DNA of 64,000 nucleotides from positions 56,530,059-56,594,058 of the forward strand of contig CM034542.1 in NCBI GenBank assembly GCA_020002185.1. Direction: 5' to 3'. Below are positions 15,320-52,100 of this stretch, piece by piece; the stretch's first letter is position 1; each line of letters opens with the position of its first letter. The stretch is from Paraescarpia echinospica. Its lineage: Eukaryota; Annelida; Polychaeta; Sabellida; Siboglinidae. The notes under the pieces are model-generated. The model saw only the letters and a list, made by a program, of their open reading frames with translations. It ran no database searches and was not told where the DNA came from. A program made the position numbers and the translations under genes.

Positions 15320-15341
15320 TTGTGTAAAATAGAAGGTAGTG

Positions 15342-15690: not shown

Positions 15691-15714
15691 TAGTTAACAG
15701 TTTATACGTAGCCA

Positions 15715-15805
15715 CACTGACGTCATCACATAGTGTCCTATATATATAGCAACAGACAACGTTTACACGACGTCGCATAGTGTCTGATATATAGAAATAG
15801 GCAAG
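15715..15805 (+). promoter_or_regulatory. Twin TATA-like promoter before the polymerase region
   Basis: Two copies of CGTC-CATAGTGTCY are followed by TATATATA (15739-15748) and GATATATAG (about 15787). They lie 55-105 bp before the ATG at 15843 that starts the zinc-finger/polymerase region. Confidence 0.45.
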
Positions 15806-15842
15806 GATCCTTCATCCTTCAGTTGCAGGTGAATACAGCACC

Positions 15843-16403: not shown

Positions 16404-16534
16404 AATTACAGGGGGACGACACCGGACACGTCTGTTCTAGAACCGTCATTGAAGATCATGTTTCGCGAACAGACACACGCCTTTAAGATTAACCTTAGTT
16501 ACGGTTTCGTGCTGAGGAACAAGAACACAAATAT

Positions 16535-19500: not shown

Positions 19501-20175
19501 AGCTCGACGTCGTTACTGACGATGCATATGAGATAGAGATGCACAAGAGGAACGTTAAATACGCATTGCCCACGCACGTGGGCTTCTTCGTTTTGCAGTG
19601 GGCCAAAGTACGCATGTTGGAGTTCTTCTACGATTTCATGATGAAGTACGTGGAACGTCCGCTGTTCGAATACTGCGAAACCGATACAGACAGCGCCTAT
19701 CTGGCTCTGGCGGGTGAGTCCGTCGACGACCTCCTGACCACGGCACTACGCAAAGACTACTTTCGCCACCGCTCCGAATGGCTACAGTCCGAATGTGTGC
19801 GATGATCACCGGAGCGAGTACGTGCGCTGTCGACTGACCAGACGTCCGTGGAGCGATACCGAGACGTGTTGCAAGGTGCGCAAAGCGTTCGACAAGAGAA
19901 CACCGGGACTCTTCAAGGTCGAATGGTCCGGCGATTTTTTTCTTGGTCTGTGCAGCAAGACCTACTATTGTTCGGGTCCCGTCGATAAATACAGCTCCAA
20001 TGGTCTGAACAAGCGACTCAACACCAGGCGTTCCTGGACATGCTCACCAATCGACGGAACGGAAGCGGAAAGAACCGCGGATTCCGGGTGAATCACTCGC
20101 CGGGGTTGACGTACATGCAGGAATGCGCGCGTGGTCCACGAGGACGGAGTCACAACGGGACCGGTGGACGTGTAA
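16535..20175 (+). pseudogene. polB: Protein-primed family B DNA polymerase, multiply frameshifted
   Basis: This is the replicative polymerase of Polintons, which starts synthesis from a terminal protein. In order it has an N-terminal region (16580-17536), exonuclease motif I FDFES (about 17350), motif II-like FNSGRYHLN (about 17731-17760), motif III YNNRDVVPFF (about 18181), polymerase motif A GYDANALYLW (about 18500), a nuclease-like insertion with EFHGCFYHG-type spacing (about 18720-18790), motif B NSSYGKF (about 19395), motif C ETDTDSAYLAL (about 19678) and the C-terminal thumb (YSSNGLNKRL, NRGFR) ending near 20175. Frame changes occur near 16600, 17545, 17760, 18955, 19310, 19800, 20030 and 20125. 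Motif II has His where the family has the catalytic Asp. The gene is dead. Confidence 0.9.
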
Positions 20176-20219
20176 TAACGATCGATTGCCGTGTCAATCT
20201 ACGCCGAAACACCGCAGAT

Positions 20220-20267
20220 ACAAAGAGGAAATGCGCCCCTACGTTAGTTGAGGTTAGTGGCTTCTCT
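20220..20267 (+). repeat. Direct repeat copy 2 (post-gene element)
   Basis: This is the near-identical partner of 15342-15389, starting 45 bp after the polymerase end at 20175. Confidence 0.7.
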
Positions 20268-20281
20268 TAGCTGTCACGTGG

Positions 20282-20500
20282 TTAGTAGGCAGACAGTAGA
20301 CAAAAAAGGTTACTTAGACAGATGTCACGCAATCTATCGTGATAGAACACTATGTCACGAACGTGAGTGGTCATAGGAGTATCGGAAGTAGGAACAGTCG
20401 GAGTGTACCTGTACGTCATATACGTCTTGTTGTACGTTCCCCTTCGCTCTTCGTGCGGTGGAGGTATCGTCGTATCTAACGTCACAGCGAACGCGACCAC
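20282..20500 (-). CDS. Possible minus-strand 72-codon ORF
   Basis: It is the only open frame filling the gap between the polymerase end and the packaging ATPase. It reads with LDTTIPPPHEERRGTYNK and RDIVFYHDR and starts from GTG at 20500 rather than ATG. No family is recognised, and convergent placement with the polymerase would be unusual. It is weakly supported. Confidence 0.2.
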   Translation of the reverse strand: MVAFAVTLDTTIPPPHEERRGTYNKTYMTYRYTPTVPTSDTPMTTHVRDIVFYHDRLRDICLSNLFCLLSAY

Positions 20501-20518
20501 CTACTAGAAGACGTGATC

Positions 20519-21114
20519 ATGGATACGCGATGGAAACATCCCTTCACCTGTATCGTCGCGGGTCCGACGGGATGCGGTAAGAGTACCTTCGTCACGCTGC
20601 AACGATGATAGATCCGCCTCCGGAGAAGAGCACGTGGTGTTATGGAGAATGGCAGAACGTCCACAGACAACGACTCGGTACAGTTCGAGGAAGGGTTGCC
20701 GAACGGTGCGTTCGACGCATCGACGCGAAACCTCGTGGTCATAGACGATCTGATGGCGGAAACGGATGAACGGGTCACGACCTTGTTCACGAAAAAGAGT
20801 CATCATCAGAACACCTCCGTACTCTAACTCGTGCAGAACCTGTTTCCGAAAAACAAGGAGAGTCGCACAATCAGTCTGAACGCGCAATACATGGTGGAAC
20901 CATGTACTGCAACGCGTCGCAGATAGGTCACTTGGCGCGACAGATGTATCCGGCATGCCTGAAGTTTGCTCAGGACGCGTTCAAAGACGCCACGTCATTA
21001 CCGTACAGTTATCTCCTGATCGATCTGAAACAGGACACGCCCGAAGACATGCGTCTGCGAACAACCATCTTTCCGGACGACGGTGTTCAGAACGAGTACC
21101 ATCCTAAGGTATAA
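20519..21114 (+). pseudogene. FtsK/HerA (A32-like) genome-packaging ATPase, broken
   Basis: The ATG at 20519 leads to a Walker A loop GPTGCGKST at about 20561-20587; stops follow at 20606. A second segment has Walker B NLVVIDDLM (about 20729-20755), a TKKSHHQN stretch, and a TAA at 20825-20827 with coding sense continuing in frame (LVQNLFPKNKESR). After another frame change, the last segment (20902-21114) gives the C-terminal part with PYSYLLIDLKQDTPEDMRLRT. This order is that of the viral packaging ATPase that pumps the genome into the capsid, about 200 residues here as in other Polintons. It lies between polymerase and capsid genes. Confidence 0.85.
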
Positions 21115-21151
21115 GACGACTGCGCATGCACGTCGTCTCTTCAGTCGCAGG

Positions 21152-21569
21152 ATGTCCGAACTCGTGAAGAGACATATCCTCTGTATACAGGCTCTAAACA
21201 GATACAAGAGCACGAAATTGAGCCATCATCATCAAAGCCGACGCCGATCTTTTGTGCGCATTGGCCGAGTGCACCTACAACATATTGAAGAAGAACATTC
21301 CCTTGACTCCCGTACAGAGACAACGTTTGAGTAAGTACAAAACAAAACTGCGTGAGTTGGCAGACAGAGATGCGCCGGTGGTCAGGTGACGTCACATCTT
21401 GCTGCAGGGGTTGGGACGGAGAAACGCACCGAGGGCGGTCGGGAGACGTCTTCGTCGGGATAATAACCAGGTCGGAGAGGGACAGACCGGTGGTTTCCTG
21501 TCAACTTTCCTAGCACCGTTGGCCAGTTCGGTCTTTCTACCGTTGCTCAAAGAGGTGCTACTCAAGTAG
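21152..21569 (+). pseudogene. Small basic Polinton protein with hydrophobic C-terminus
   Basis: The ATG at 21152 opens a Lys/Arg-rich start (MSELVKRHILCIQAL). After a frame change near 21225, the sense continues with ALCxCxYNILKKNIPLTPVQ-like sequence and LSKYKTKLRELAD. A TGA at 21387-21389 interrupts, and the same frame goes on through Arg-rich sequence and a glycine/hydrophobic tail (GGFLSTFLAPLASSVFLPLL) to a TAG at 21567-21569. Proteins of this type, with a basic N-part and hydrophobic end, recur in animal Polintons and have been compared with adenovirus core or minor proteins. Its role is not established. Confidence 0.55.
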
Positions 21570-21575
21570 ACGACG

Positions 21576-22229
21576 ATGGAACATGCACGGAAGATGGCCT
21601 TGGTAGATCCGCGACTGTTGGACAGTCTTCGCGCACCACCACCGACGGATACCCTAGGACGCAAGGTACAGGACCTCGACGACGAGATGAAAGTCATACT
21701 CGACAGACGGGATCTCACCGACGGAGACAAGGTCGTCACGTATAATCAAGAGTTGCAACGCTACAACGCGTTGTCCGATCGTCGCATGCGAGAACCAGTG
21801 CGCGTGATCAACGTGAAGACATCACCACCTCCCTCACCGGTAGCCACAGCGGCGGCGGCGGCAAATGACCCACCGCCCCCACCTCCGGCGGGGGCGGGAG
21901 GTATAGAAGCGGTAGTCATCAACAGCGTTCCAAAGGCCCTTCGGCCCAAAGCCGCGAGACTGATGGAACATGTCGAAGGAGACGTTGCGTGGAGCTCGCG
22001 CGGAGAGCTGATGCACAAAGGAGTAGCTGTACCCGGAAGTAACATGGTTGATCTCGTGAACGATCTGCTGCGCAAGTGCAAGACCAACGGCGATCCGACG
22101 GGATGGCAGGTGTTTGCGCGTCAACTCGGTGACATGAACGTACCCATGGAGTTGGTGGGTAACCAGGACAGGAAACGACACATTCAGCAAACGCAAAAGA
22201 AGAGCGCGGTGGCGGCAGCGGCCGCATGA
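21576..22229 (+). CDS. Conserved Polinton late protein, intact, 217 residues
   Basis: The gene starts at ATG 21576, seven bases after the previous stop, and is open to TGA at 22227-22229. It has an N-terminal helical part (VQDLDDEMKVILDRRDL, YNQELQRYNALSDRR), a central Ala/Pro linker (about residues 85-105), and a C-terminal domain (VAWSSRGELMHKGVAVPGSN, LVNDLLRKC, GWQVFARQL, PMELVGNQDR). A decayed homologue lies at 311-846, which shows the gene is conserved between Polinton families. No enzymatic motif is seen. Its place between the ATPase and the integrase/capsid genes suggests a structural or assembly role, which is an inference. Confidence 0.7.
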   Translation: MEHARKMALVDPRLLDSLRAPPPTDTLGRKVQDLDDEMKVILDRRDLTDGDKVVTYNQELQRYNALSDRRMREPVRVINVKTSPPPSPVATAAAAANDPPPPPPAGAGGIEAVVINSVPKALRPKAARLMEHVEGDVAWSSRGELMHKGVAVPGSNMVDLVNDLLRKCKTNGDPTGWQVFARQLGDMNVPMELVGNQDRKRHIQQTQKKSAVAAAAA

Positions 22230-22286
22230 TCGCTCGGTGGAGCGCGACGAACCCTACAGTGGACACCCCTCGCGCGTCGTCAACGA

Positions 22287-22453
22287 ATGGACTCGTCTGC
22301 CGCCTTACCCACGCCACCGTCGGAAGGACGTAAGACATGGGAGTCTTTAAAGACGACGACGTATAATGACGTGCGACAGTTGTCTGTTTGTCGGTATCGC
22401 TTACGCCGCACTTCACCTCGTGACCGGGATCACCGTCGACTATCTGATACGAC
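22287..22453 (+). other. Small ORF remnants before the integrase
   Basis: Two overlapping frames are open here. One starts at ATG 22287 (MDSSAALPTPPSEGRK) and runs on into the integrase frame. The other starts at ATG 22366 and contains a hydrophobic segment (CLFVGIAYAALHLVTGITV) that could span a membrane. They may be one small gene split by a frameshift. No family is recognised. Confidence 0.3.
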
Positions 22454-22454
22454 T

Positions 22455-23540
22455 ATGGCGCATCACCGGAAAAAGCTCCAGGGAGTCTACTTCGATCCTG
22501 CTAAGGCAGAAAGTTACGGAGGTATCGAGTCTTTGCGCCGAGTCACCTTCTGACCTATACAGCGTGTACTGAGAAAGATCGTCGAACAATGGCTATCGGA
22601 ACAGAACGCCTGTACTCTACACAAACCGGTCAGAGTTCATTTCGAGCGGCGACACGTGGTCGTCGGAGGCCGGAATCAACAGTGGGAAGCCGATCTCGTC
22701 GACGTGTCCAGTCTGAAAAGAGACAACGAGGGTACGACGTTCCTACTCGCGGTGATCGACGTCTTCTTGAAAGTCGCCCGATGCGTTCCCCTGTAGAATA
22801 AGTCGGCGACGTCTATGACGAGGGCGCTGGATGGACTGTTCACCGACGGCGTTCGTCCACTGACGTTGCAGACTGATAGAGGTCTGGAATTCCTGAACCG
22901 TGGCGTTCGGGGTGTATTGGAAAAGTACGGTATTCATCACTTCTTCACCTACAACGAGGAGACCAAGGCGAGCATCGTGGAACGCTTCAATCGCACGCTA
23001 AAGATGCGGATATGGCGATACCTGACGCAAAAAGAAACGTGGCGATACATCGATATCCTTCCGGATCTGGAGCGGACGTACAACGACACACCCCACCGCA
23101 GCATCGGGATGGCTCCGTTGCAGGTGAATGCGTCTAATCAGGAAGAGGTGTGGCAGCGCTTGTACGGCGGTCATCACGGTAAGGGCGTGCCCATGTACCA
23201 CGTGGCGGATCGCGTGCGTATCAGCAAGGTCAAGAGACAGTTCGACAAAGTGTACATGGCGAATTGGACAGAGGAAATATTCACGATACGCGAGGTGCAC
23301 CCGTCTGATCCGCCCATCTATCGTCTGACGGACGATCTCGGAGAGATACTGGACGAAACCTTCTGCGAACCGGAGTTGCAGAACGTGACGGTTCCGATCG
23401 ATAAACTGTACCGCGCGGAATCGATAGTGCAGCGACGCAAGGTAGGGAGGCGAAGGGAGGTATTGGTGAAATGGTTTGGATACCCTTCGAAATTCAATAG
23501 CTGGATCGATGCCAAGGTCCTCGTCGGCTATAAAGACTAG
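22455..23540 (+). pseudogene. Retroviral-type integrase with C-terminal chromodomain, two nonsense codons
   Basis: From ATG 22455 a single frame runs to TAG at 23538-23540, interrupted by TGA at 22551-22553 and TAG at 22794-22796 with no frameshift. The N-part has YFDPAKAESYGGIESL. The catalytic core has WEADLVDV (Asp at 22692), LQTDRGLEF (Asp at 22875) and ASIVERFNRTLK (Glu at 22980), giving the DDE triad with 34 residues between the last two. An SH3-like part follows (RVRISKVKRQFDK). Residues from about 23409 form a chromodomain-like end (YRAESIVQRR...EVLVKWFGYPSKFNSWI), which may guide insertion to marked chromatin. All catalytic residues remain, so the gene was inactivated by point mutation. 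Confidence 0.9.
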
Positions 23541-23573
23541 TCACGTGTCCGAAGAGATGTCATTCATCCGCTC

Positions 23574-23858
23574 ATGACGGACGAGACGACAATAGCTTCC
23601 ATTGTCAACGAAGAAGAAGAAGAAGTCGACGTACCGCCGCAGAAAAAGAGGACTCCGTGGCACATCTTCGGCACCGCGTGTCCCAAAGAGGAGATCGGTT
23701 TTGTGTGTCAGGTTATCGTCTTGTACAGTGCCATCTTGGTCAGCATCTACAACCTATCCATCGGACACGAGAACGCGACTCTGTGGACTGCCCTGTTGAG
23801 TAGTTCGTTGGGTTACCTGCTACCCAGTCCGACGTTGCGACAACATGATCAGCAGTGA
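23574..23858 (+). CDS. Small two-segment membrane protein of Polintons
   Basis: The gene is 94 codons from ATG 23574 to TGA 23856-23858. An acidic N-part (NEEEEEVDVP), a basic PQKKR patch and two hydrophobic segments follow: FVCQVIVLYSAILVSIYNLSI and LWTALLSSSLGYLLPSPTL. It overlaps the penton gene by 14 bases. Short proteins with this two-segment layout and the LP-P-T end recur beside capsid genes in animal Polintons. The role is unknown; a virion membrane or egress function is possible. Confidence 0.65.
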   Translation: MTDETTIASIVNEEEEEVDVPPQKKRTPWHIFGTACPKEEIGFVCQVIVLYSAILVSIYNLSIGHENATLWTALLSSSLGYLLPSPTLRQHDQQ

Positions 23859-24582
23859 TTTCTACCTGACGCTACCTAGCAACGCTTCCATGCGTACGCA
23901 TCCCGACAACACGTTGACCCACTACATCACGACGCTACCGCAACGTCTCAACTTGTCGGGTCAGTGGGAGTGTGGTCTGGCGGAGATAATCTATCCGCAT
24001 AGTTGGTACAACGTGAGAGAGAAGAACGCGTGGTTCGGTATTGGGATAAGAAATACGGATGAAGAGAAGGAGATGACTACGACGAAAACCAATATCGAGG
24101 CCAGGTATTATCACGGACCGGAGAATCTCATCAAAGCGATAAACAAAGCCCTACTACGTGTGCTACCGGATAATGTTGTGCGCATATACTACATCCCCAC
24201 CACGCACAAGATTACAGTGGTGATGCTGTCGAATGCCATATTCAGCGCGGATATGTTGACGAGCATTCTAGGCTTTCATGAGACCATGCTGTTCGGAGAG
24301 ATTCCGAAGAAGAAGAAGGAAACGTTGATAGAAGCCGACTCCGTGGTGGACATGACGCGGGATTTCGACTCGCCCTATGTCTACACGAACGTCATCGAAC
24401 CTCGAATCGTTGGCGACACCGTGACGACGACCTTTCAAAAGATCCAGTACCTGCCCGTCCTGTGCAAAGAATTCGGCACGATCGAGATCGATATAAGAGA
24501 CGATACCGGCCGGCGCGTGCCATTCGAAAGCGGAAAACTGACGACGACGCTTCATTTCCGACGACGACGGACGGCACTGTTC

Positions 24583-24585
<3 letters not shown>
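23845..24585 (+). CDS. Minor capsid protein (penton), intact
   Basis: The 246-codon gene runs from ATG 23845 to TAG 24583-24585 without interruption. The N-part has the pattern FYLTLPSNASM followed by PDNTLTHYITTLP, then LSGQWECGLAEIIYPHSWYNV. These blocks mark the conserved Polinton/adintovirus protein placed with single-jelly-roll penton proteins that occupy capsid vertices. It sits directly before the pVI/pX-like and major capsid genes. A GA microsatellite begins at its stop codon. Confidence 0.8.

Positions 24586-24633
<48 letters not shown>
24584..24633 (+). repeat. GA microsatellite between penton and pVI/pX-like genes
   Basis: About 24 uninterrupted AG units run from the penton stop codon to the ATG at 24634, filling the whole intergenic gap. 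Confidence 0.95.
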
Positions 24634-24637
<4 letters not shown>

Positions 24638-25026
24638 ATTACAACTACGCTCGTCAAGCGGGAGCCGCGCTTCCCTATTTCGTAGGTGGCCGCTACCAAA
24701 GAGGACACGGTCTAGGAAGTATATTCGGAGGTCTACTGCGTAGCGTCATGCCGCTCGTCAAGAGAGGCGCCATGGCGTTGGGAAAGAGAGCGCTGTCGGC
24801 CGGCGCGCACATAGCTGACGATGTCCTGTCGGGGGAGAACATCAAAACATCCGCCAAACGTCGCGTTACGGACGCCGGTAGAGAGATGTTGAGTCAACTC
24901 ATAACCCCTGGCGTACAAGCGCGTAAGACGCATATACAACGCACGTTCCCTACGAAACGAGTCAGTACAGCCGGGAGACGGACGACGAAGAAGACACGCA
25001 TATTCGACGATGGCGTTCGTTCATAA
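24634..25026 (+). CDS. Adenovirus pVI/pX-like minor virion protein
   Basis: The 130-codon gene is intact. It starts at the ATG right after the GA tract and ends at TAA 25024-25026, overlapping the capsid gene start by 17 bases. It has an aromatic/glycine start (YVGGRYQRGHGLGSIFGGL-like), an amphipathic helix (LLRSVMPLVKRGAMALGKRA), then GAHIADDVLSGENIKTSAKRR and a basic tail (RRTTKKTR). This layout matches small basic, membrane-active or core proteins of adenovirus-like virions, processed by the adenain-type protease. The exact equivalence (pVI or pX) is not decided by sequence alone. Confidence 0.65.
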
Positions 25027-26310
25027 ACAATCATGTGAGGGACTCAAGGGCGAACTCGATATCTTCGCCGTGTCTCCGACCAGTATCATCGATAGTCACG
25101 TGGTGCAACATCAACCCATGTCGTCGCTCGACTCGGGTGAACCGATAGAATTCGTTATAGCCGGTTCCGAAGACGATTACCTGGATCTCGCCAGCACGAT
25201 GCTACACGTTCAAGCGAAGGTAACCCGCGCCGACGGAAGCGACCTCGATGGCGCCGATCCCGTCGGTCCAGTGAATAACTGGCTCCATTCCCTTTTCAGC
25301 CAGGTCGACGTCTACCTGAACGGAACGCTCGTCACCCCCTCGACCAACACGTACCCGTACCGCGCCTACATGGAGACGCTGCTGAGTTACGGAGACGACG
25401 CCAAGGAGACGCAACTGATGAGTCAGATGTGGTGCAAGGACAGGAGTAATCGTATGGAAGCCGTCGAAATAGCCGCCGGAAATGCAGCCAACGCGGGGTT
25501 CATCACCAGACACTCCAGTACGACTGGGAGTCGCGTGGTCGACATGATGGTTCGTCTCCACGTGGACCTGTTCCTCCAGGATCAATTCCTCATCAACGGC
25601 GTAGAGGTCAAGATACGTCTGGTACGCAGCAAGGACGCCTTCGCGCTCATGGAAACAACTCCGACTAAAAGATAAAGGTCATCAACGCCACGCTGTTCAT
25701 CAAGAAGGCCACCCTGAATCCGGGCGTGCAGATGGCTCACATCAAGGCCCTCGAAATAAGCACAGCCAAGTATCCGATGCGACCCGTCAACTGCAAGGTC
25801 TACTCCATTCCCACGGGTACCCGCTCGCACATGCATGAGAATCTCTTTCTTGGCATTCTTCCAAAACGTCTCGTGCTGTGCTGCATCGACAACGACGCCT
25901 ACAACGGAAGCTATGCTAAAAACCCGTTCAACGCCAAAAACAACCATATCAACTTCCTCGCCGTGTACGTGGACGGACGACAGATACCCTCCAAACCTTT
26001 CCAACCCAATTTCGTCGACGACCTCTTCGTCAGGTGCTACCACAACCTGTTCACCTCGACGGGTAAGGTGTGGCAGGACGAAGGAAACGGCTTGACTCGC
26101 GCTACGGCTACACCTTCTTCGGCTTGGATCTCACCCCTGACTCGTGCGATGACTGCTGCTTCCATCTGGTACAAAAGGGCAACCTGCGCATCGATATTCA
26201 TTTCCGCGACGCACTGACGACCACTGTGATCGTCGTCGCCTACGCCGAGTTCGAGACCGTTCTGGAGATCGATAAGAGTCGCAACGTCATCTACGACTAT
26301 TTATGTAAAC
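25010..26310 (+). pseudogene. Major capsid protein (double jelly-roll hexon), frameshifted
   Basis: The gene starts at ATG 25010. The first frame is open to 25675 and includes PIEFVIAGSEDDYLDL, NNWLHSLFSQVDVYLNG and TYPYRAYMETLLSYG, all hallmark blocks of the Polinton major capsid protein. A one-base-type frame change near 25666-25675 moves to a second frame (VINATLFIKKATLNPGV, NFLAVYVDGRQIPSKPF), and another near 26095 moves to a third frame holding the end (YGYTFFGLDLTPD, RIDIHFRDALT, VIVVAYAEFETVLEID). The natural stop is not clear because the third frame reads on to 26405. The protein would form the trimeric capsid shell. Confidence 0.9.
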
Positions 26311-26746
26311 CCTGCAGATCGCCCGTCTACTCGTCCAGGATGCGCACACCAAGGCCATCGTTCGTAGGATCGTACCCAAAGACGTACTCCTCACCGAGAC
26401 GATAGACGCTTACCCGGTCGCCTTCGTATGCAACACGAAGAAACCGGGAGAACATTGGATAGCGCTGTACCTGAACGATAAAGGTCAAGGTGAATACTTC
26501 TGCTCGTACGGCTTGCCGCCACGACACGTCGAATTCCGACGATTCATGAATAAACATTGCGTAGAATGGACTCATAATTCAAAGAGACTTCAGAGTCCCG
26601 TGTCTAACGTTTGCGGGCAATACTGTGTTGCTTATCTCATGTTTCGATGTTGTGGACTTCCTATGAAGGAAATCGTGAACGGTTTCGGTACTGATCTGGT
26701 AGCAAACGACTGCCGTGTATTCGACTGGCTTAAACTATTGAACTAA
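26306..26746 (+). pseudogene. Adenain-like cysteine protease
   Basis: A frame open from about 26306 to TAA at 26744-26746 gives the adenovirus-type virion maturation protease. His is at 26453 (GEHWIALY), Gln at 26618 and Cys at 26624 (VCGQYCVAY). The third triad position, usually acidic, is Cys at 26501 (EYFCSYG). There is no in-frame ATG between the upstream stop near 26303 and the catalytic His, so the start is lost or was upstream in another frame. It is the last gene of the rightward block, in the usual place after the major capsid gene. Confidence 0.75.
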
Positions 26747-26814
26747 GATGCGTGCATTTCGGTACATACCGTGTTTCATTAACGGACAGATATCATCATC
26801 ATCATTATCGTTCG

Positions 26815-28109: not shown

Positions 28110-31037
28110 GATAAAAAATTTACATGTTGGGCTAGACTAATTTGGAATGAAGTCAGTGATGTACTTAATACAATGCTTGGAGGTAGTGAATTCCACTATT
28201 TTATTGTGACTGGGAAAAAGTTGTTTCCAAATATGTTTGTCGAGTGCCTGATTTGTACTAACTGTTTATTATGTTTACGTGAGCATCTGGTGTTGCGTTT
28301 GATGTATTGATCTAGTGGGATATCTATGAGGTTATGTTCCATTTTATATAATATGCTAAGTCTTTGGGTTTTTCTTCTTGATTGGAGGGTGTCCCATTGG
28401 AGATCTTTAAGGAGTTGTGTTACTGTTCCTGGCTCTCTAGAATAGTTGTTCTTAACAATCTGGCGGCTTGTCTCTAGGTTCTTTCTATGAGTTTGATATT
28501 TCTTAGGCAATGTGGATCCCATGATGCTGACGCATATTCAAGTATAGGGCGGACAAGGGTTGTGTAGGCTATGGACTTGATTTGCGTTGGGCATTTATTT
28601 AAATTTCTTCTAATAATTCCCAATGTCTGTTGTGCTTTTTTGTGACTGAGTTGCTTTGTATTGTCCAATTTAATGTATTTTATATATGTATGCCAAGATA
28701 ACAGTGTGATTCAACAGATTTAAGTTGTTGTCCGCAGAAGGTGTAGATATTTGGTGTCGGTTTTCTTGAGGCTATTGTCATTGTAATACATTTAGTGGGG
28801 TTGAATTTTATAAGCCACGTGTGTTGCCATTTCTCAAGTTTGAGCAGATCGTTTTGGAGGACAGATGTGTCTTTGTCAGTTTTAATCGGTGAATATAACA
28901 GGCAGTCGTCTGCAAAAAGGCGAACAGTTGAGGAAAGATTGTCTGGCAGGTCATTTATGTAAAGTAGGAAAAGTAGGGGCCCCAGTACTGTGCCCTGTGG
29001 TACCCCAGAAATGACTTGAGTTGATGTTGACTTGGATCCATTTATAACAACCTGTTGAGTTCTTCCTGTAAGGAAGCTATTTATCCATGATGATATTGGG
29101 CCTGTGATGCCATAGTGTTTGAGTTATGGATTAGTCTTTTATGTGGAACTTTATGGAATGCTTTGGTGAAGTCAAGGATGTCACAGAATTATTTCCAGTC
29201 TTCTGGATTTCTAGTTCTTTTTGCTTTGTTATATAGCTGTTTCTTTCTTTTGCACATTTTCTTTAAATCTTTATTGAACCAGGGAAGATTGTGTCTTGAA
29301 GTAGTAAGACGGTGTGGTACATATTGGTTCATAATGTTGATGATTTTCGTGGAAACAAGATTCCATTTGTCATTGACTGTCATGTTTTGGTTTTGAGAGA
29401 AGTATTCATGTGTAAAGTTTTCAAGAGATTTCTGGATGTTAATGTTGTCGGCTTTATTTATAATGAAGACTTTACGTTTCGGGCTATGTTTGCGTTTGGG
29501 CGAGATGTTTACATCAATGATGATTGTGCTATGGTCTGCTATTCCGTCTACTACATTTATCTTCTTTATTAACCCAGGTCTATTGGTGAAGACAAGATCT
29601 AAAATATTATTGGCATTTCCCTGTCTGTGCGTGGGTTCTTTGACATGTTGGATTAGTCCATGTTCCTCTGTAAAAGAGAGTAATTTATTGGCAGCAGTTG
29701 TACTGTATCCATTGTTAGGTGTGACTTGGAGAATTTCCCAATTGATGTTAGGGAGGTTGAAATCGCCAGTAATGATGACATTATGTGTGTTGGTCTTGTT
29801 ACCTTATTTAGAAAAGGCTACGTCTCTTCGATTTGAGTTCCATGAGAGTCATTTGGGGCACGATAGAGGGTACACATGATTATTGGTTTCATTCCTGTTA
29901 TCTGGGTTTCAGTCCAAATGCTCTCACTGTTAGTGTCTAGGTCTGGTAGGTGGCTTGTGATGAGGTCATCTTTTGATATTTGAAATACATCCCCCCTCCA
30001 GTAGTGTCTGTTTCTCTGTCCTTTCTAAAGACGTTAAAGTTGCTTGGGAATATTTCTCCATTTTTTATTGAGGGCTCTAACAATGATTCAGTGCTACATA
30101 TGATGTCTGGGTTGTGTAGATTGTTTAGTGCTTTAATGTCTGAGGCTTTCTTTTTAACGGTTTGGCAGTTTATGAGGATGCATCTGAAATTTGGTCTCTT
30201 TTTCGGTCTATATGCTTTCTTGCTATTAGTTGTATTGTTGGTGGTGGTTTCGTTTAGGTTATGACTGTTACTGTCCAGAGGATAAAAGGGATTTGCTGTT
30301 GGGATTTCTGTATCTCTGAAGAAAGAATTTGTGAAGTAGAAGTTGTTGCATTCGGGGCAGGCCCACGAACATGAGGAATTTATGAATCATTTGTATTCAT
30401 TGTCATCTATTGCACAGCATTGTGTGTGGATCCAGTTTAGGCAGTGGTCGCACTGAATTGCTTTATGGTCATTTAGGACATCCCCATGGCAAATGCCACA
30501 GGGTGCTGAGCAATTTGAACAGTGCCATGGTACATTTAGGTTTCTGTAAATGTTGTTAAATTCTTGTCTGGATATCCTGGCGCATTTGATGTGTGTTGAT
30601 TTATTACAATCATTACAAGTTAGGATGAGTGCATTAGACTTTAGTGATTTCTTACATGAGTGACATTTAGAGGGGCCTGGATTTAGTTGAACATCTCCTG
30701 ATAGCATGATGTATAGAAGTATGGAGAATTTTGTTGTTGTCCTGGGTTTGTACGGTAGAGGAGTGATCAGTAATCCAGTGGAGGTGCTGGATTTGAGACA
30801 TTTCAATTGGGCTATGGTTTTCCATATGGGACTGTAAATGTAGTTGGACGTGACAGAATGGATGTCTTGTCTAGCTTTGGTGTTGACATAGGTCTCGTTT
30901 GTGTTGCTCTGGAAACTCTCAAACTTTTTGAAATTGGGATCATTTAAAAACCTAAAAGTGATCTGCAGACATAAAATCATGAACAGGGTACATCTAAAAG
31001 TGCATCTTGTAGGGATATGTCGTACGGAGCCTGCCAT
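28110..31037 (-). mobile_element. CR1/Jockey-like LINE, frameshifted
   Basis: Read on the minus strand from 31037, the element has a first region with a 2A-like motif and PHD finger, an endonuclease-type stretch (about 30290-29400; for example ILINCQTV and DIICSTESLL), a pre-RT segment (29383-29189; RHNLPWFNKDLKKMCKRKK), and a reverse transcriptase with GVPQGTVLGPLLFLLYIND and VRLFADDCLLY (about 29010-28890). The usual C-terminal part follows (28668-28196; YTTLVRPILEYASASWDP). Several frame changes and stops break the endonuclease and RT. No target duplication was found. Confidence 0.85.
30387..31037 (-). CDS. LINE first region with 2A-like motif and PHD finger
   Basis: The 216-codon open segment starts at ATG 31037. 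Residues around 105-120 carry a hydrophobic lead-in and GDVQLNPGP (30698-30672). This is the 2A-like signature that makes the ribosome skip a peptide bond before the last proline. Behind it, two Cys/His clusters follow: CHSCKKS...CNDCNKSTHIKC...HCSNC and CGICHGD...CDHCLNWIHTQC, of zinc-ribbon and PHD-finger type. 2A sequences in this position are known from APE-type non-LTR elements of sea urchins, lancelets and molluscs. The segment ends in a stop where the endonuclease part should continue, so it is probably truncated. Confidence 0.75.
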   Translation of the reverse strand: MAGSVRHIPTRCTFRCTLFMILCLQITFRFLNDPNFKKFESFQSNTNETYVNTKARQDIHSVTSNYIYSPIWKTIAQLKCLKSSTSTGLLITPLPYKPRTTTKFSILLYIMLSGDVQLNPGPSKCHSCKKSLKSNALILTCNDCNKSTHIKCARISRQEFNNIYRNLNVPWHCSNCSAPCGICHGDVLNDHKAIQCDHCLNWIHTQCCAIDDNEYK

Positions 31038-31059
31038 GTCACCAACTCGAGTGGTAGTG

Positions 31060-31889
31060 GTTAAGAATTTATAAAACGGTCAAGTAGTTATTAAGAAACA
31101 CACCCACACTTAAAACGTGTACCGAGATAATATTAAAAAATAAAAGATAAATAATGATAAAATATCTGTCCGTGTAAAAGGTTTAGTGACTAGTTGTTGT
31201 TTTTGCTGTTTTTTGACAGCCTACAATCCGGATTTGTAATAGTATGATACGTAAGCTTTATGTGAAAGTATATATTTACATGTGTGTATGTTGAACCATC
31301 TCACACTGGTTCACGAGTCAAACTGAAAACCCAACTAACACGACACTTCCCTGTGTGCAGTCCGACTATGAACTGGTCTACGCACTCACTTATTGGTATA
31401 CAGTTTATTGTTTATTTCAGCTTGATTTCTGATAGTATATAAACAGAACTAGTAATGATAATAACATAGGTTTTACTTTGTCGCTGGGAGAATGCACCGA
31501 TTTATGAGTTGATTTGGGGGTGGTTTGGGTTTCGCGTGCTTTATACCTGTTGTTAGGCACTTCAACAAAAAATTTAATATCATGCTAGAACATTGAGAAT
31601 GGGCTTAAATTAAAGGTAATAGGTTAAGGATCACATAACTGTTTATTTTATTAAGATACCTTTAATATATCAAAAGAAGAATTGCGATTTTAAGACGGAA
31701 AAACTGCATAATTTTTGTGTATCTCTTACAATGACAAAATGGACTAATTTTTGTGTTTTCTGTGGATAAATATTTGCTTTAAAATGTCATAACTTTTTTT
31801 ATTTATACAGATATTTAAATATTGTTTTCAAACACATTGACCAGAGTAATAAATTTACAATATTTAATATTTTTAGTAATAATTATAAC
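31060..31889. other. AT-rich non-coding DNA
   Basis: No coding frame or recognised element was found. Confidence 0.5.
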
Positions 31890-35083: not shown

Positions 35084-38000
35084 ATGGCTCCCAGAAGAAA
35101 TCGACACAAGATTTGGGGGTATTTTATGAAGTCGACATCTGAACATGACAGCGACAACGAAGACTCGGACTGTGTATCGGACGACGAAGCTCTGGATCTT
35201 GACGACATCGAAGCAAGTTCTGATGACACGATCGCCAGATCCGTGCCAAACAAGTTGAAAACCAGTATGTTTAATTTGTTTAATTATCCAGTCACGATAA
35301 ACACACTAATTTGATATTGTGGTAAAGAGCGAACGGGTAATTAGTGGTAACTTACGTGGCTCGCTCTTTATGTTCGGTTGCTGCGTTGCGTTCTGTGGTC
35401 GCCGTTGATCCTGAGCCAGCACATCGGAAGTATGATGTCTTGCTCGGGTGGATCGGTGTGGCGCGCTTGGTATGGGTGTGGTTGGGGTTTATATACAGGG
35501 CAGGGGTATTGGTGTGCAGTGGTGTGTGCAAGGGGTAGTGGGTGGGTGGCGATGAGCAGTGCTACCATCTGGTGACTACCACATTCCTCCCTCCTTATGT
35601 TATGACGTTTGATCGCCAACCATATATTCAACTTGAATTCCATTTTAAAACTTAATATAATTATGTAAGTAATAATTAACAAATTAGTCAATCAAACAAC
35701 CTAGTCAATTTAATAAAACAAATTAATTTAATAATCGTTAAATAATTATACACCGTTTATTATGAACGTATTACCAGTGATTGTTGTGAACAGGGTTAGT
35801 ACAATAAACATTCAAAAACTAAAACTCTTTATAACATAGTAATGTGGTGGGCAACGAAATGTTGTTGCACTAGTCTTATTTGACCAGGCAGTGCAAGTGC
35901 AGGGTTCTGTTGACAGCATAAGAGGGCTGATGCCCGGCTGTCGTGATATTTGCTTCCTACACCTTATAAAACGCCTGTGCGTTGAGGGTGGCCATGCGAA
36001 GCACTACCCAGCTTGGCAGATTGCACAGTGCTGCAATGTACCGTGCCCGGTGCACCAGCTCATATGGGTGTCCGTTGTTATGGCCCCGTGGTGACAACAG
36101 GGGGGCATCTGTTTCCAACACCAGTCGGTATAGGTCGATCTGTCGTGCCAGTTCGCTAAATCCTGGCGCGGACACCGACTTGTTGGTGATTCCAAAAACA
36201 CTGTTGGTAAACTGCCGTACCCACTGCCTGTAGTCTGCCAGACTACCGGTGAAACAGTGCACATGTATAAGCTGGCGTTGATGTGTGTGCTTTTCTAGTA
36301 TTGCCAGAGCTTCGCACATGACACTCGAGAAAGGAACGCGTGCGTTCCCACGCAGGTGGAGAACCAGCGGCTTTTCCAACTCCTTAGCCAAGGCAATATG
36401 CTTTTCTAGCAATAGTCGTTGGCTGGGAAGCGAATGTAGTGGCTCCGTATAATCGAGGCCACATTCGCCTATCGCCGCGCAGTCAGTACTACAGATCTTG
36501 GCTTGAACCCTGTCCCATGATTCACTACCAAGCGACTTTGCCAGTCGAGGGTGAACACCGTATGTGGTTTTTATAACCACCGTCTGATGACTGACGGTGA
36601 CCCCCTTTATGACTGGTCGCAACCAGTCGTCTGGAAAGACGCGGTTATCCACCACTGCGGTGAGGCTGACCTTACTATCACCTCGCCAGAGGGAGAAGGC
36701 CGTTTCCCACGCTGGGACAGGTTCCGTGATAAAATCAAATGGAACAGCAGTTCTCTCCCGGGTCCCTGTCTCCTGGTGTTTCCTCGCCCTTGTCTCCCTA
36801 GCCTGCAGTAATTGTAGGTGGCAGTGGGCATCCATGGCGAACTCCGTTATAGTGTGAGTCTGATGGAGTGAGGCAGACGGGACTAGCCATTCCCTGAAGA
36901 TGTCCTGCTTATGGGGTGGCATCTCCGCCAACATCCTGCCCATGCTGTCCCAATTGAGGAGCGCCACTGGGTGATTGGGTGGACTCAGCTGGATGTTGAC
37001 GGCAGCGATAGGTCGGCCTATCATCTCAGCTACTTCGGCTAGCATGACCCGCATGGCCATGTTAGATCGGGAACCCCACTTCTGGTACCAATGTGGTAAA
37101 GAGCGAACGGGTAATTAGTGGTAACTTACGTGGCTCGCTCTTTATGTTCGGTTGCTGCGTTGCGTTCTGTGGTCGCCGTTGATCCTGAGCCAGCACATCG
37201 GAAGTATGATGTCTTGCTCGGGTGGATCGGTGTGGCGCGCTTGGTATGGGTGTGGTTGGGGTTTATATACAGGGCAGGGGTATTGGTGTGCAGTGGTGTG
37301 TGCAAGGGGTAGTGGGTGGGTGGCGATGAGCAGTGCTACCATCTGGTGACTACCACAATATTATATTCGATTTTTTAAACGCCCCTGCTCCCTTCCCCTC
37401 TAGTCTAGGCTAGCTCTACTAACTTGCCTTACCCCTTTAGCTAGGTATATCAGGTAACAATTCAAATACGCTATTTTTTCAATTAAATGGTTCCACAAGA
37501 TAGAGTTTGTTATGACGTTTATGACAGTTTTTGAATTTGTGTGAAATCTTCATTATTTCCGACGTAATTCCACTTTTTGTTCTCAGAAAAACAACACTTT
37601 TTGGTATTGAATTTCAGTCCATTTCTTGTGCCCAAACTGGCCCCAGAAGCTTAATGTACTGCATTTAATCATATAGGAAAACGGCCATAAAATTGTGTAT
37701 ATTGAAGATATTTATGCGAAATAAGAAGTTATGTGACTCAAAAAAATCATATTGATATGATTTGACCTTGATCTAATTAATTGACCTTCATTGTATATTT
37801 GACCTAATTACATTGATTATTTGCATTATTTGAATGTAATTAATTAGGAAATGCCTACTAAACTATTAGAGGATTGAAGATTGTTAATATATATTATATT
37901 GTTATAATTAATTGACCTATATTTAATAATAACTGCTAACTCTTAAAATCCATAATTTGTTGATGACCTAATTAGTTAACCTAATTTCTTATTTGACCTA

Positions 38001-45639: not shown

Positions 45640-46153
45640 TATAACTGCTGAGGTTATGTTCCAATAATTTTATGATTTTCGCAGAAATATAATCTCGTAT
45701 TTCAATGTCCAGTTTATTTTTGTCGACAACAATCCAAACCTAACAAAACGATAGTTGCATAAATTTATGAACCCACAGACTTAAAAAAACAATGTCAATC
45801 CAAATGACCTTATTTCTCAAAATGTTTTAGAAATAATAAAAAACTACTGAAGATATTTAAGTTCACAATATATGGACTCCAAAAAGTTACAAAACTCCAT
45901 TTCAATTGTACAAATTAATACCCACTACTTATAAGGCCCACAAGCTTGCACACTCACATATATATGTATATATAATATATATATAATATATATATATAAT
46001 ATATATGTAAGTATGTACAGCTGTATATTGCTTTAATTGTAGTTCCGTGTGTATGTATGCAGGGGGAATTTATATGCAGTTTTTGCAAACCTAGCTACTA
46101 ATGAAAGTAGCCAGTACGACAATTGTGCTTTTCAATGTAGTTTTGTTCATGCT
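45640..46153. other. Spacer between two tandem arrays
   Basis: AT-rich DNA with an (AT)n stretch at about 45958-46010. No gene was found. Confidence 0.5.
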
Positions 46154-49100
46154 TTGTATCTTGGGTGCCAAGCTTTCAGGGGTTTATTTATGTATCTTGG
46201 GTGCCAAGCTTTCAGGGGTTTATCTATGTATCTTGGGTGCCAAGCTTTCAGGGGTTTATCTATGTATCTTGGGTGCCAAGCTTTCAGGTGTTTATCTATG
46301 TATCTTGGGTGCCAACCTTTCAGTGGTTTATCTATGTATCTTGGGTGCCAATCTTCCAGGGGTTTATCTATGTATCTTGGGTGCCAAACTTTCAGGTGTT
46401 TATCTTTGTATCTTGTGTGCCAAGCTTTCAGGGGTTTATCTATGTATCTTGGGTGCCAAGCTTTCAGGGTTTTATTTATGTATCTTGGGTGCCAAGCTTT
46501 CAGGGGTTTATCTTTGTATCTTGGATGCCAAGCTTTCAGTTGTTTATCTATGTATCTTGGGTGCCAAGCTTTCAGTTGTTTATCTATGTATCTTGGGTGC
46601 CAAGCTTCCAGGGGTTTATCTATGTATCTTGGGTGCCAAACTTTCAGGGGTTTATCTTTGTATCTTGGGTGCCAAGCTTTCAGAGGTTTAACTATGTATC
46701 TTGGGTGCCAAGCTTTCAGGGGTTTATCTATGTATCTTGGGTGCCAAGCTTTCAGTTGTTTATCTATGTATCTTGGGTGCCAAACTTTCAGTTGTTTATC
46801 TATGTATCTTGGGTGCCAAACTTTCAGGGGTTTATCTATGTATCTTGGGTGCCAAACTTTCAGTTGTTTATCTATGTATCTTTGGTGCCAAGCTTTTAGT
46901 TATTTATCTATGTATCTTGGGTGCCAAGCTTTCAGAGGTTTTTCTTTGTATCTTGGATGCAAAACTTTCAGTTGTTTATCCTTGTATCTTGGGTGCCAAG
47001 CTTTCAGTTGTTTATCTATGTATGTTGGGTGCCAAGCTTTCAGGGGTTTATCTATGTATCTCGGGTGCGAAACTTTCAGTTGTTTATATATGTATCTTGG
47101 GTGCCAAGCTTTCAGGGATTTATCTTTGTATCTTGGGTGCCAAGCTTTCAGTCGTTTATCTATGTATCTTGGGTGCCAAGCTTTCAGGGATTTATCTATG
47201 TATCTTGGTTGCCAAGCTTTCATGGGTTTATCTTTGTATATTGGGTGCTAAGCTTTCAGGGGTTTATCTATTTATGTATGTTGGGTGCCAAGCTTTCAGG
47301 GGTTTATCTATGTATCTTGGGTGCCAAGCTTTCAGTTGTTTATCTATATATCTTGGGTGCCAAGCTTCCAGGTGTTTATCTATGTATCTTGGGTGCCAAG
47401 CTTTCAGTTATTTATCTATGTATCTTGGGTGCCAAACTTTCAGGGGTATATCTTTGTATCTTGGGTGCCAAGCTTTCAGGTGTTTATATATGTATCTTGG
47501 GTGCCAAGCTTTCAGGGGTTTATCTTTGTATCTTGTGTTCCAAGCTTTCAGGGATTTATCTATGTATCTTGGTTGCCAAGCTTTCATGGGTTTATCTTTG
47601 TATCTTGGGTGCTAAGCTTTCAGGGGTTTATCTATGTATCTTGGGTGCCAAGCTTTCAGTTGTTTATCTATGTATCTTGGGTGCCAAGCTTTCAGTTGTT
47701 TATCAATGTTTCTTGGGTGCCAAACTTTCAGGGGTTTATCTATGTATCTTGGGTGCCAAACTTTCAGTTGTTTATCTATGTATCTTGTGTGCCAAGCTTT
47801 CAGTTATTTATCTATGTATCTTGGGTGCCAAGCTTTCAGGGGTTTATCTATGTATCTTGGGTGCCAAACTTTCAGTTGTTTATCTATGTATCTTGTGTGC
47901 CAAGCTTTTAGTTACTTATCTATGTATCTTGGGTGCCAAGCTTTCAGTTATTTATCTATGTATCTTAGGTGCCAAGCTTTCAGGGGTTTATCTTTGTATG
48001 TTGGGTGCCAAACTTTCAGTTGTTTATCTATGTATCTTGGGTGCCAAACTTTCAGTGGTTTATATTTGTATCTCATGTGCCAAGCTTTCAGGGGTTTATC
48101 TTTGTATCTTGCATCACAAACTTTCAGTTGTTTATCTATGTATCTTGGGTGCCATGCTTTCAGGGGTTTATCTTTGTATCTTGGGTGCCAAACTTTCAGG
48201 TGTTTATATATGTATCTTGGGTGCCAAGCTTTCTGGGGTTTATATTTGTATCTTGTGTGCCAAGCTTTCAGGGGTTTATCTATGTATCTTGGTTGCCAAG
48301 CTTTCATGGGTTTATCTTTGTATCTTGGGTGCCAAGCTTTCAGGGGTTTATCTATGTATCTTGGGTGCCAAACTTTCAGTTGTTTATCTATGTATCTTGG
48401 GTGCCAAGCTTTTAGTTATTTATCTATGTATCTTGGGTGCCAAGCTTTCAGGGGTTTTTCTTTGTATCTTGGGTGCAAAACTTTCAGTTGTTTATCCTTG
48501 TATCTTGGGTGCCAAGCTTTCAGTTGTTTATCTATGTATGTTGGGTGCCAAGCTTTCAGGGGTTTATCTATGTATCTCGGGTGCCAAACTTTCAGTTGTT
48601 TATATATGTATCTTGGGTGCCAAGCTTTCAGGGATTTATCTTTGTATCTTGGGTGCCAAGCTTTCAGTGGTTTATCTATGTATCTTGGGTGCCAAGCTTT
48701 CAGGGATTTATCTATGTATCTTGGTTGCCAAGCTTTCATGGGTTTATCTTTGTATCTTGGGTGCTAAGCTTTCAGGGGTTTATCTATTTATGTATGTTGG
48801 TTGCCAAGCTTTCAGGGGTTTATCTATGTATCTTGGGTGCCAAGCTTTCAGTTGTTTATCTATATATCTTGGGTGCCAAGCTTCCAGGTGTTTATCTATG
48901 TATCTTGGGTGCCAAGCTTTCAGTTATTTATCTATGTATCTTGGGTGCCAAACTTTCAGGTGTATATCTTTGTATCTTGGGTGCCAAGCTTTCAGGTGTT
49001 TATATATGTATCTTGGGTGCCAAGCTTTCAGGGGTTTATCTTTGTATCTTGTCTTCCAAGCTTTCAGGGGTTTATCTATGTATATTGGGTGCCTAGCTTT

Positions 49101-52100
49101 CAGTTGTTTATCTATATATCTTGGGTTCCAAGCTTCCAGGTGTTTATCTATGTATCTTGGGTGCCAAGCTTTCAGTTATTTATCTATGTATCTTGGGTGC
49201 CAAACTTTCAGGGGTATATCTTTGTATCTTGGGTGCCAAGCTTTCAGGTGTTTATATATGTATCTTGGGTGCCAAGCTTTCAGGGATTTATCTATGTATC
49301 TTGGTTGCCAAGCTTTCATGGGTTTATCTTTGTATCTTGGGTGCTAAGCTTTCAGGGGTTGATCTATGTATCTTGGGTGCCAAGCTTTCAGTTGTTTATC
49401 TATGTATCTTGGGTGCCAAGCTTTCAGTTATTTATCTTATGTTTCTTGGGTGCCAAACTTTCAGGGGTTTATCTATGTATCTTGGGTGCCAAACTTTCAG
49501 TTGTTTATCTATGTATCTTGGGTGCCAAGCTTTCAGTTATTTATTTATGTATCTTAGGTGCCAAGCTTTCAGGGGTTTATCTTTGTATGTTGGGTGCCAA
49601 ACTTTCAGTTGTTTATCTATGTATCTTGGGTGCCAAACTTTCAGTTGTTTATCTATGTATCTTGGGTGCCAAACTTTCAGTGGTTTATATTTGTATCGCA
49701 TGTGCCAAGCTTTCAGGGGTTTATCTTTGTATCTTGCATCACAAACTTTCAGTTGTTTATCTATGTATCTTGGGTGCCATGCTTTCAGGGGTTTATCTTT
49801 GTATCTTGGGTGCCAAGCTTTCAGGTGTTTATATATGTATCTTGGGTGCCAAGCTTTCTGGGGTTTATCTTTGTATCTTGTGTGCCAAGCTTTCAGGGGT
49901 TTATCTATGTATCTTGGTTGCCAAGCTTTCATGGGTTTATCTTTGTATCTTGGGTGCCAAGCTTTCAGGGGTTTATCTATGTATCTTGGGTGCCAAGCTT
50001 TCAGTTGTTTAACTATGTATCTTGGGTGCCAAACTTTCAGTTGTTTATCTATGTATCTTGGGTGCCAAACTTTCAGGGGTTTATCTATGTATCTTGGGTG
50101 CCAAACTTTCAGTTGTTTATCTATGTATCTTGGGTGCCAAGCTTTTAGTTATTTATCTATGTATCTTGGGTGCCAAGCTTTCAGGGGTTTTTCTTTGTAT
50201 CTTGGGTGCAAAACTTTCAGTTGTTTATCCTTGTATCTTGGGTGCCAAGCTTTCAGTTGTTTATCTATGTATCTTGGGTGCCAAACTTTCAGGGGTATAT
50301 CTTTGTATCTTGGGTGCCAAGCTTTCAGGTGTTTATATATGTATCTTGGGTGCCAAGCTTTCAGGGGTTTATCTTTGTATCTTGTGTTCCAAGCTTTCAG
50401 GGATTTATCTATGTATCTTGGTTGCCAAGCTTTCATGGGTTTATCTTTGTATCTTGGGTGCTAAGCTTTCAGGGGTTTATCTATGTATCTTGGGTGCCAA
50501 GCTTTCAGTTGTTTTTCTATGTATCTTGGGTGCCAAGCTTTCAGTTGTTTATCAATGTTTCTTGGGTGCCAAACTTTCAGGGGTTTATCTATGTATCTTG
50601 GGTGCCAAACTTTCAGTTGTTTATCTATGTATCTTGTGTGCCAAGCTTTCAGTTATTTATCTATGTATCTTGGGTGCCAAGCTTTCAGGGGTTTATCTTT
50701 GTATGTTGGGTGCCAAACTTTCAGTTGTTTATCTATGTATCTTGGGTGCCAAACTTTCAGTTGTTTATCTATGTATCTTGGGTGCCAAACTTTCAGTGGT
50801 TTATATTTGTATCTCATGTGCCAAGCTTTCAGGGGTTTATCTTTGTATCTTGCATCACAAACTTTCAGTTGTTTATCTATGTATCTTGGGTGCCATGCTT
50901 TCAGGGGTTTATCTTTGTATCTTGGGTGCCAAACTTTCAGGTGTTTATATATGTATCTTGGGTGCCAAGCTTTCTGGGGTTTATCTTTGTATCTTGTGTG
51001 CCAAGCTTTCAGGGGTTTATCTATGTATCTTGGTTGCCAAGCTTTCATGGGTTTATCTTTGTATCTTGGGTGCCAAGCTTTCAGGGGTTTATCTATGTAT
51101 CTTGGGTGCCAAACTTTCAGTTGTTTATGTATGTATCTTGGGTGCCAAGCTTTTAGTTATTTATCTATGTATCTTGGGTGCCAAGCTTTCAGGGGTTTTT
51201 CTTTGTATCTTGGGTGCAAAACTTTCAGTTGTTTATCCTTGTATCTTGGGTGCCAAGCTTTCAGTTGTTTATCTATGTATGTTGGGTGCCAAGCTTTCAG
51301 GGGTTTATCTATGTATCTCGGGTGCCAAACTTTCAGTTGTTTATATATGTATCTTGGGTGCCAAGCTTTCAGGGATTTATCTTTGTATCTTGGGTGCCAA
51401 GCTTTCAGTCGTTTATCTATGTATCTTGGGTGCCAAGCTTTCAGGGATTTATCTATGTATCTTGGTTGCCAAGCTTTCATGGGTTTATCTTTGTATCTTG
51501 GGTGCTAAGCTTTCAGGGGTTTATCTATTTAAGTATGTTGGTTGCCAAGCTTTCAGGGGTTTATCTATGTATCTTGGCTGCCAAGCTTTCAGTTGTTTAT
51601 CTATATATCTTGGGTGCCAAGCTTCCAGGTGTTTATCTATGTATCTTGGGTGCCAAGCTTTCAGTTATTTATCTATGTATCTTGGGTGCCAAGCTTTCAG
51701 GGGTTTATCTTTGTATCTTGGGTGCCAAACTTTCAGTTGTTTATCTATGTATCTTGGGTGCCAAGCTTTCAGTTGTTTATCTATGTATCTTGGGTGTCAA
51801 ACTTTCAGTTATTTATCTATGTATCTTGGGTGCCAAACTTTCAGGGGTTTATCTTTGTATCTTGGGTGCCAAACTTTCAGTTGTTTATCTATGTATCTTG
51901 GGTGCCAAGCTTTCAGTTGTTTATCTATGTATCTTGGGTGCCAAACTTTCTGGGGTTTATCTATGTATCTTTATCTTTGGGTGCCAAACTTTCAGTTGTT
52001 TATATATGTATCTTGGGTGCCAAGCTTTCAGCTTGTCCAAGTTATTTATCTTTGTATCTTGGGTGCCAAGCTTTCAGGGGGTTTATCTTTGTATCTTGTG

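Follow-up and report, generated by a model that had tools for sequence, protein, structure and literature searches.

Ty3/gypsy retrotransposons of the Metaviridae type, including the Mag/CsRN1-like families of Lamellibrachia luymesi, are flanked by long terminal repeats (LTRs) and 4-bp target-site duplications (TSDs). They carry a primer-binding site (PBS) for a transfer RNA (tRNA), a polypurine tract (PPT), a gag with CCHC knuckles and a pol that encodes protease (PR), reverse transcriptase (RT), ribonuclease H (RH) and integrase (IN) (PMC8220671). We analyzed a 64,000-nucleotide stretch of the Paraescarpia echinospica genome, hereafter the window (C12:56530059-56594058 in the searched assembly of 1.08 Gb). 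It hosts a 2040-bp LTR element with a TatD gene at positions 35318-37357, whose sense strand is the minus strand. The family from which this element very probably derives has all the features listed above, whereas an open reading frame (ORF) for a zinc-finger TatD protein after the integrase, ORF3, is a feature of the present elements; the text of the Lamellibrachia paper contains no word starting with 'tatd' or 'nuclease' (PMC8220671).

Other described systems resemble this family in part. The orchid Gypsy elements with an AlkB/2-ODD demethylase are likewise large gypsy elements with an extra conserved ORF for an enzyme of nucleic acids, but the enzyme there is a demethylase in a plant and here a nuclease in an animal; the section on the domains of that screen does not name TatD (PMC9289625). 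The env-like additional ORFs (aORFs) located between pol and the 3' LTR share with ORF3 the position, the sense orientation and the presence in many copies, whereas ORF3 has a recognizable metal-dependent nuclease fold (PMC7264820). LTR-mediated retroposition, or transduction of the Bs1 type, likewise leaves a host-type gene between LTRs with a microhomology junction; in our case, however, the gene was already owned by the family and the junction is that of an internal deletion. The TatD nucleases themselves (E. coli TatD and YcfH, human TATDN1/2/3) have the same triosephosphate isomerase (TIM) barrel model and the same ligand set as ORF3, which differs from them in its fused C2H2-type fingers, in its conserved middle region and in being borne by an element. 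None of the literature matches listed describes an LTR element that encodes TatD. The zinc-finger TatD ORF, which selection has kept in this lineage of LTR retrotransposons, thus seems to be a novel type of cargo in a well-known class of elements.

The TatD element and its Ty3/gypsy parent family

The window element is very probably a shortened, non-autonomous copy of a Ty3/gypsy-type family of about 10 kb that carries a zinc-finger TatD ORF3. The search of the genome with its LTR gave 249 first-look candidates, and all 40 of those that were scored matched the full 266 nucleotides (nt) with at least 99% identity. With at least 40 such matches, the repeats are LTRs genome-wide; these matches, together with a deletion junction that recurs in three elements, rule out that the window holds the only copy. 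Among the scored LTRs, three pairs are separated by about 10.17 kb and a fourth by 9.96 kb. A full-length copy with the TSD ATAC is found at C11:53341080-53351518 (fetched as L009 and L010). It encodes, in this order, a gag-like piece with two CCHC knuckles, PR and RT, RH and IN, and a 758-codon ORF3 composed of a long low-complexity stretch, the motif PPRKRRRV, two C2H2-type fingers and TatD. Pfam recognizes gag-asp_proteas, RVT_1, RT_RNaseH, Integrase_H2C2, rve and TatD_DNase in L009/L010; in the derivative L012, the gag ORF of 633 codons gives a zf-CCHC match and weak matches to gag families. The first ATG of ORF3 in L009 sits 17 nt past the stop of pol. The LTR of the window copy is therefore also that of an element with gag and pol, and TatD is the third ORF of this parent of about 10.4 kb rather than a host nuclease travelling as lone cargo, as the original prediction had it.

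Overall, the layout of the parent is LTR-PBS-gag-PR-RT-RH-IN-ORF3(C2H2-type fingers and TatD)-PPT-LTR, with ORF3 (about 750 amino acids) in the position of env, between integrase and 3' LTR. The family has the marks of Ty3/gypsy elements, namely TG...CA LTRs with 4-bp TSDs (ATAT, ATAC and GTAT, with none in the copy L011), a PBS complementary to the host tRNA-Leu(UAA) over 13 nt in the full-length copy, a CCHC gag and the order PR-RT-RH-IN. No envelope glycoprotein was found in ORF3 with Pfam, which gives only TatD and a weak finger there; membrane segments were not looked for. Past the PBS, the 5' leader contains diverged internal repeats (73-225 and 238-394 with L010 as reference, about 74% identical).

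The linkage between integrase and ORF3 recurs across the genome. Searching with the TatD protein returned 123 matches from 111 scored of 382 candidates; at least 34 of them are full length with at least 94% identity, and 30 of these 34 have no stop. Integrase lies upstream in 27 of the 30 TatD loci that we fetched (the exceptions are the window, L046 and L047), and an LTR match lies downstream in all 30, although it is partial in L066 and L070. The reverse search with integrase, in which 58 of 10537 candidates were scored, returned 62 matches. In 49 of these 62, a TatD match follows downstream in the same orientation at less than 5 kb, often at a distance of 935-937 or about 1140-1174 nt, whereas the control orientations, with TatD upstream of integrase or on the opposite strand, were never observed (0/62). 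Ten of the 62 integrase matches are stop-free and belong to pol frames 1488-1496 codons long; when pol and ORF3 frames were surveyed, several of the same elements also held stop-free ORF3 frames of 746-758 codons.

A second family, represented by L072 (C5:67775500-67781200), contains RT-RH-IN, a 668-codon zinc-finger TatD ORF, the PPT AACGGGGAAAGGA and the start of an LTR, with ORF3 in the same frame as pol and one stop between the two. When this family B is compared with the family described above (family A), RT is 84% identical over 291 amino acids and ORF3 47% identical over 610 amino acids, and an N-terminal motif of ORF3 aligns too. Because the layout of L072 is the same and ORF3 has diverged more than RT, ORF3 is likely to be older than the split between families A and B, and it likely evolves faster than RT.

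Relatives are also detectable among proteins. P0003 joins a retroviral-type protease, 83% identical to that of L010 over 166 amino acids, to TatD, and P0010 of Ridgeia piscesae joins gag-like and RT-like pieces to TatD (81% identity over 48 and 68% over 41 amino acids, respectively). The protein search with the whole ORF3 returned five proteins, none of which has a complete pol, and IMG/VR gave no match to the window TatD protein. In a tree of 41 TatD domains, the element TatDs fall inside a 19-row clade of zinc-finger and related TatDs (support 99/97), which takes in distant zinc-finger TatD proteins of other sources such as P0011, P0014 and P0121.

Some observations do not favor the picture of an intact parent with a standard third ORF. 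The fingers score below the Pfam cut-offs, gag is interrupted in L010 (449-codon piece) and pol in L072, and 13 of the 62 integrase matches have no TatD within 5 kb. These 13 are old, truncated or TatD-less relatives.

Two more TatD proteins were noted. A TatD with 52% identity (family C, C12:24879776-24880834) lies in a 1072-codon open frame; the 1.3 kb upstream (L073) contain repeats and a finger-like stretch, and no integrase was seen there by eye. Family C may be a host gene or a third kind of element. P0021 has a TatD preceded by an N-terminal gag-type zinc-knuckle-like motif (by eye) and is possibly element-borne.

In the window copy, TatD is the single open frame between the LTRs, and gag and pol are absent, as originally described. 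The other structural features attributed to this element (identical LTRs, a primer-binding-like site, a PPT, a 4-bp target duplication) were likewise recovered (Table 1). The two LTRs are direct repeats that start with TG, end with CA and are 100% identical, which agrees with the proposed recent move. On the sense strand, TGGTACCAGAAGTGGGG is located at 37074-37090, one T after the 5' LTR, and is the sole match in the window with up to three mismatches, compared with 0.07 expected.

Table 1. Coordinates of the TatD element and its parts in the window
Feature	Position	Strand	Description
5' LTR	37092..37357	-	266 bp, TG...CA; TATATAAA box at 37262-37269
3' LTR	35318..35583	-	identical to 5' LTR
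TSD ATAT, 3' side in sense	35314..35317	.	
TSD ATAT, 5' side in sense	37358..37361	.	
Primer-binding site	37071..37090	-	20/20 nt equal to the reverse complement of the tRNA-Leu(UAA) 3' end with CCA
Deletion junction	37071..37076	-	tRNA-like PBS passes into ORF3 codons inside the common GGGTTC
TatD nuclease frame	35957..37060	-	367 amino acids; TatD domain at residues 77-366; frame open upstream to 37114
3' untranslated stretch of parent element	35584..35956	-	373 nt; 368 in full-length copy L009
Polypurine tract AAGGAGGGAGGAA	35584..35596	-	adjoins 3' LTR

By domain (PF01026, E 3.5e-37), ligands and modelled fold, the product of this intact 367-codon frame is a TatD-family protein with predicted nuclease activity. 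All six expected metal ligands are present, as the original prediction stated; we take the TatD set to be HxH, E, H, H and D. They are kept in 31 of 33 aligned rows, with some lost in L069 and L071. The AlphaFold model is a TIM barrel with a core predicted local distance difference test (pLDDT) score above 90 and a mean of 76, and its best matches in the PDB are YcfH, TatD, TATDN3 and TATDN1. The homology of the protein relatives begins upstream of the window ATG. From there through the primer site, the window reads WYQKWGSRSNMAM, where P0002, P0010 and P0017 have GWYPK.GSR.NMGM, and the relatives are longer by an N-terminal half that holds two fingers of the C2H2 type (motif assigned by eye). 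The window frame is an N-terminally truncated ORF3 that has lost its fingers, and the short copies encode at most a finger-less TatD protein.

Elsewhere in the window, Maverick/Polinton-like ORFs were recognized by eye at 13800-26750. They include DNA polymerase B-like pieces (16499-19805), a retroviral-type integrase (22797-23540), a capsid-like part (23800-26217) and a protease-like part (26309-26746). Pieces of a non-LTR element with endonuclease and RT were also seen by eye at 28680-31079 on the minus strand, alongside an ORF that has a PHD-like region and a motif, GDVQLNPGP, resembling a 2A peptide. A long tandem array extends over 46000-63500; several reading frames of its unit are open, on either strand, and the translation is YLCILGAKLSGV-like.

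Selection on the TatD frame

Purifying selection acts on the TatD frame. We measured the ratio between nonsynonymous and synonymous substitution rates (dN/dS) in 26 stop-free rows of family A, in which one locus occurs twice and from which the window and L072 were excluded. L026, whose alignment contains 22 gaps as well as a stop, is also outside this set, and the 33 aligned rows correspond to 32 loci because L014 and L046 are one locus. The median dN/dS was 0.23 (5-95%: 0.13-0.43) over the 225 pairs with dS > 0.02, which are not independent of one another. The ratio below 1 that had been anticipated for the TatD part of other copies is therefore confirmed. Among seven representatives, the 21 pairs ranged from 0.13 to 0.59, with the exception of one pair at 0.96 that has a dS of 0.004. 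By comparison, control readings of the same seven sequences gave medians of 1.32 and 0.89 in the other two frames and 1.25 in antisense. The N-terminal part of ORF3 showed values of 0.55-0.69 (five copies, pairs with dS ≥ 0.02). Between families A and B, dN is about 0.37 and dS about 2, which is saturated.

The branch leading to the window has seven changes of its own, five nonsynonymous and two synonymous, which give no indication of constraint but are too few to judge it, and close copies compared with the window reach a dN/dS of 1.6 on few changes. We find it fairly probable that the short element is a decayed passenger, whose TatD frame is open merely because the element moved recently. 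The changes on this branch, the identical LTRs and the loss of the fingers all fit this explanation. However, the counts are small and the contrast between the window branch and the family is not significant (Fisher p 0.16); moreover, the frame is also open in the short copy on C9, where it spans 380 amino acids with 96% identity to the window TatD (this copy was read in part).

Possible role of ORF3

The likeliest role of ORF3, by analogy with known TatD enzymes, would be to process RNA:DNA or 3' ends while the element is reverse-transcribed or afterwards, because it combines TatD chemistry with fingers and with the basic PPRKRRRV, which is presumably a nuclear signal. TatD enzymes are 3'-5' exonucleases on single-stranded DNA and RNA, TATDN1 and TATDN3 also cut apurinic/apyrimidinic sites, and TATDN2 digests RNA and resolves R-loops (PMC12709183). 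The ORF3 protein would enter the nucleus or the particle and bind nucleic acid through its fingers. It would then trim RNA or 3' ends in the RNA:DNA or complementary DNA intermediates of the element, similarly to TATDN2 on R-loops and TatD on single-stranded ends.

Alternatively, ORF3 may have been selected for a job outside replication, such as defence against rival elements or viruses, chromatin damage for integration, or an env-like role. The env position is in line with this possibility, and the fingers and PPRKRRRV upstream of TatD would fit an action on chromatin. TatD chemistry, however, suits the processing of ends and hybrids (PMC12709183), and we consider such a job less likely than not.

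Formation of the short copies

The window element follows the 5' end of the full-length element for 280 nt and, from 282 on, corresponds to ORF3 with seven substitutions, so that the primer site passes directly into ORF3 codons. In the aligned junction stretches, the tRNA copy and the window both read TGGTACCAGAAGTGGGGTTC, the full-length PBS reads TGGTACCAGAAGTATATG and ORF3 reads TGGTACCCAAAGCAGGGTTC. Two tRNA-Leu(UAA) genes of the same genome carry exactly this 3' end. The match to this tRNA covers 20 nt in the window PBS and 13 nt in the full-length copy L010, and one G is common to tRNA and window and is found in neither parent stretch, both of which have A. A match of 20 nt instead of 13 that runs straight into ORF3 codons suggests that plus-strand strong-stop DNA with a tRNA tail annealed to a part of ORF3 that resembles the primer site.

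According to this mechanism, plus-strand strong-stop DNA would end in a complete copy of the tRNA-Leu(UAA) primer. This DNA would miss the true PBS complement and anneal to the PBS-like stretch TGGTACC..AAG..GGGTTC in the minus-strand copy of ORF3, the last 6 nt of which match the tRNA tail where the true PBS is mostly mismatched. Since the tail fits ORF3 better than the true PBS, priming there would yield LTR-PBS-TatD-PPT-LTR, as observed. The short form would then be mobilized by the enzymes of full-length relatives. In Ty1 and Ty3, tRNA sequence is normally not inherited (PMC5371799).

The exact junction is present at four sites in three elements, namely the window, C9:8351696, and C10:11195218 and 11196091. 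The C9 short copy is flanked by the TSD GTAT. The C10 copy, L011 (C10:11194956-11197412), contains the junction twice: a stretch of LTR, the PBS and the start of TatD recur within the TatD frame of this copy, which looks as though a single reverse transcription had undergone the mis-transfer a second time.

The evidence for a tRNA-directed deletion is weakened by several facts. L011 has no matching TSD. The three junction copies have no common derived substitution compared with L009 in the parts that were compared, and therefore both a single mobile short form and repeated formation are possible. The case for a tRNA origin of the junction depends on one base, the G that all three copies have, and a point change in their common ancestor would equally explain it.

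The deletion may otherwise derive from an ordinary RT template switch during minus-strand synthesis, or from DNA recombination at TGGTACC, with no tRNA copy involved. Full-length PBS and ORF3 stretch have seven consecutive nt and 10 of 12 bases in common, and other deletions of the family join other points (PR to TatD in L012, LTR 1-105 to ORF3 in L014/L016). However, this explanation accounts neither for the extra G nor for the 20-nt match to tRNA-Leu, which neither parent stretch has, and we regard it as rather unlikely. L026 and L028 have a 5'-truncated ORF3 without the junction. L014 and L016 (C4:69.32 and 69.20 Mb) lie 121 kb apart and are the same deletion derivative; because their flanks are also the same, they are a duplicated segment rather than two insertions.

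The idea of a host retrogene in an LTR shell, with a host TatD mRNA packaged and template-switched between LTRs as for maize Bs1 and the retrocopies of Tan et al., follows a mechanism that is already known (PMC5408686) and fits both the structure of the window taken alone and the microhomology at its junction, but it is hardly credible and was rejected, since the same TatD, 3' region and LTR occur in gag-pol elements (integrase upstream in 27 of 30 loci), full-length copies carry TatD as their own ORF3, and the window matches this family ORF3, rather than a host mRNA, at 99%.

Returning to the tRNA-tailed intermediate, a wider scheme may be drawn. The env slot would be filled by a nuclear zinc-finger TatD that finishes the reverse transcription of its own element, either trimming the tRNA-copied 3' tail of plus-strand strong-stop DNA, whose match to the genomic PBS in these elements is limited to 13 nt, or clearing RNA:DNA hybrids, and a tail left untrimmed would prime at the ORF3 decoy and generate the short TatD-only elements. 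In its entirety, we hold this scheme to be improbable and propose it as a speculation.

LTR retrotransposition is usually considered to need no more than gag and pol. That selection has kept a nuclease ORF implies either a step for which RT, its RNase H and integrase are not quite sufficient, or an interplay with R-loop or repair enzymes of the host that are of the TATDN type. The Ridgeia gene model P0010, with its gag, RT and TatD pieces, would represent the remains of an element and not a host gene. The short copies may be a case of an internal deletion guided by the tRNA primer, and they make the long-standing question of the inheritance of tRNA copies in Ty-like elements testable in genome data.
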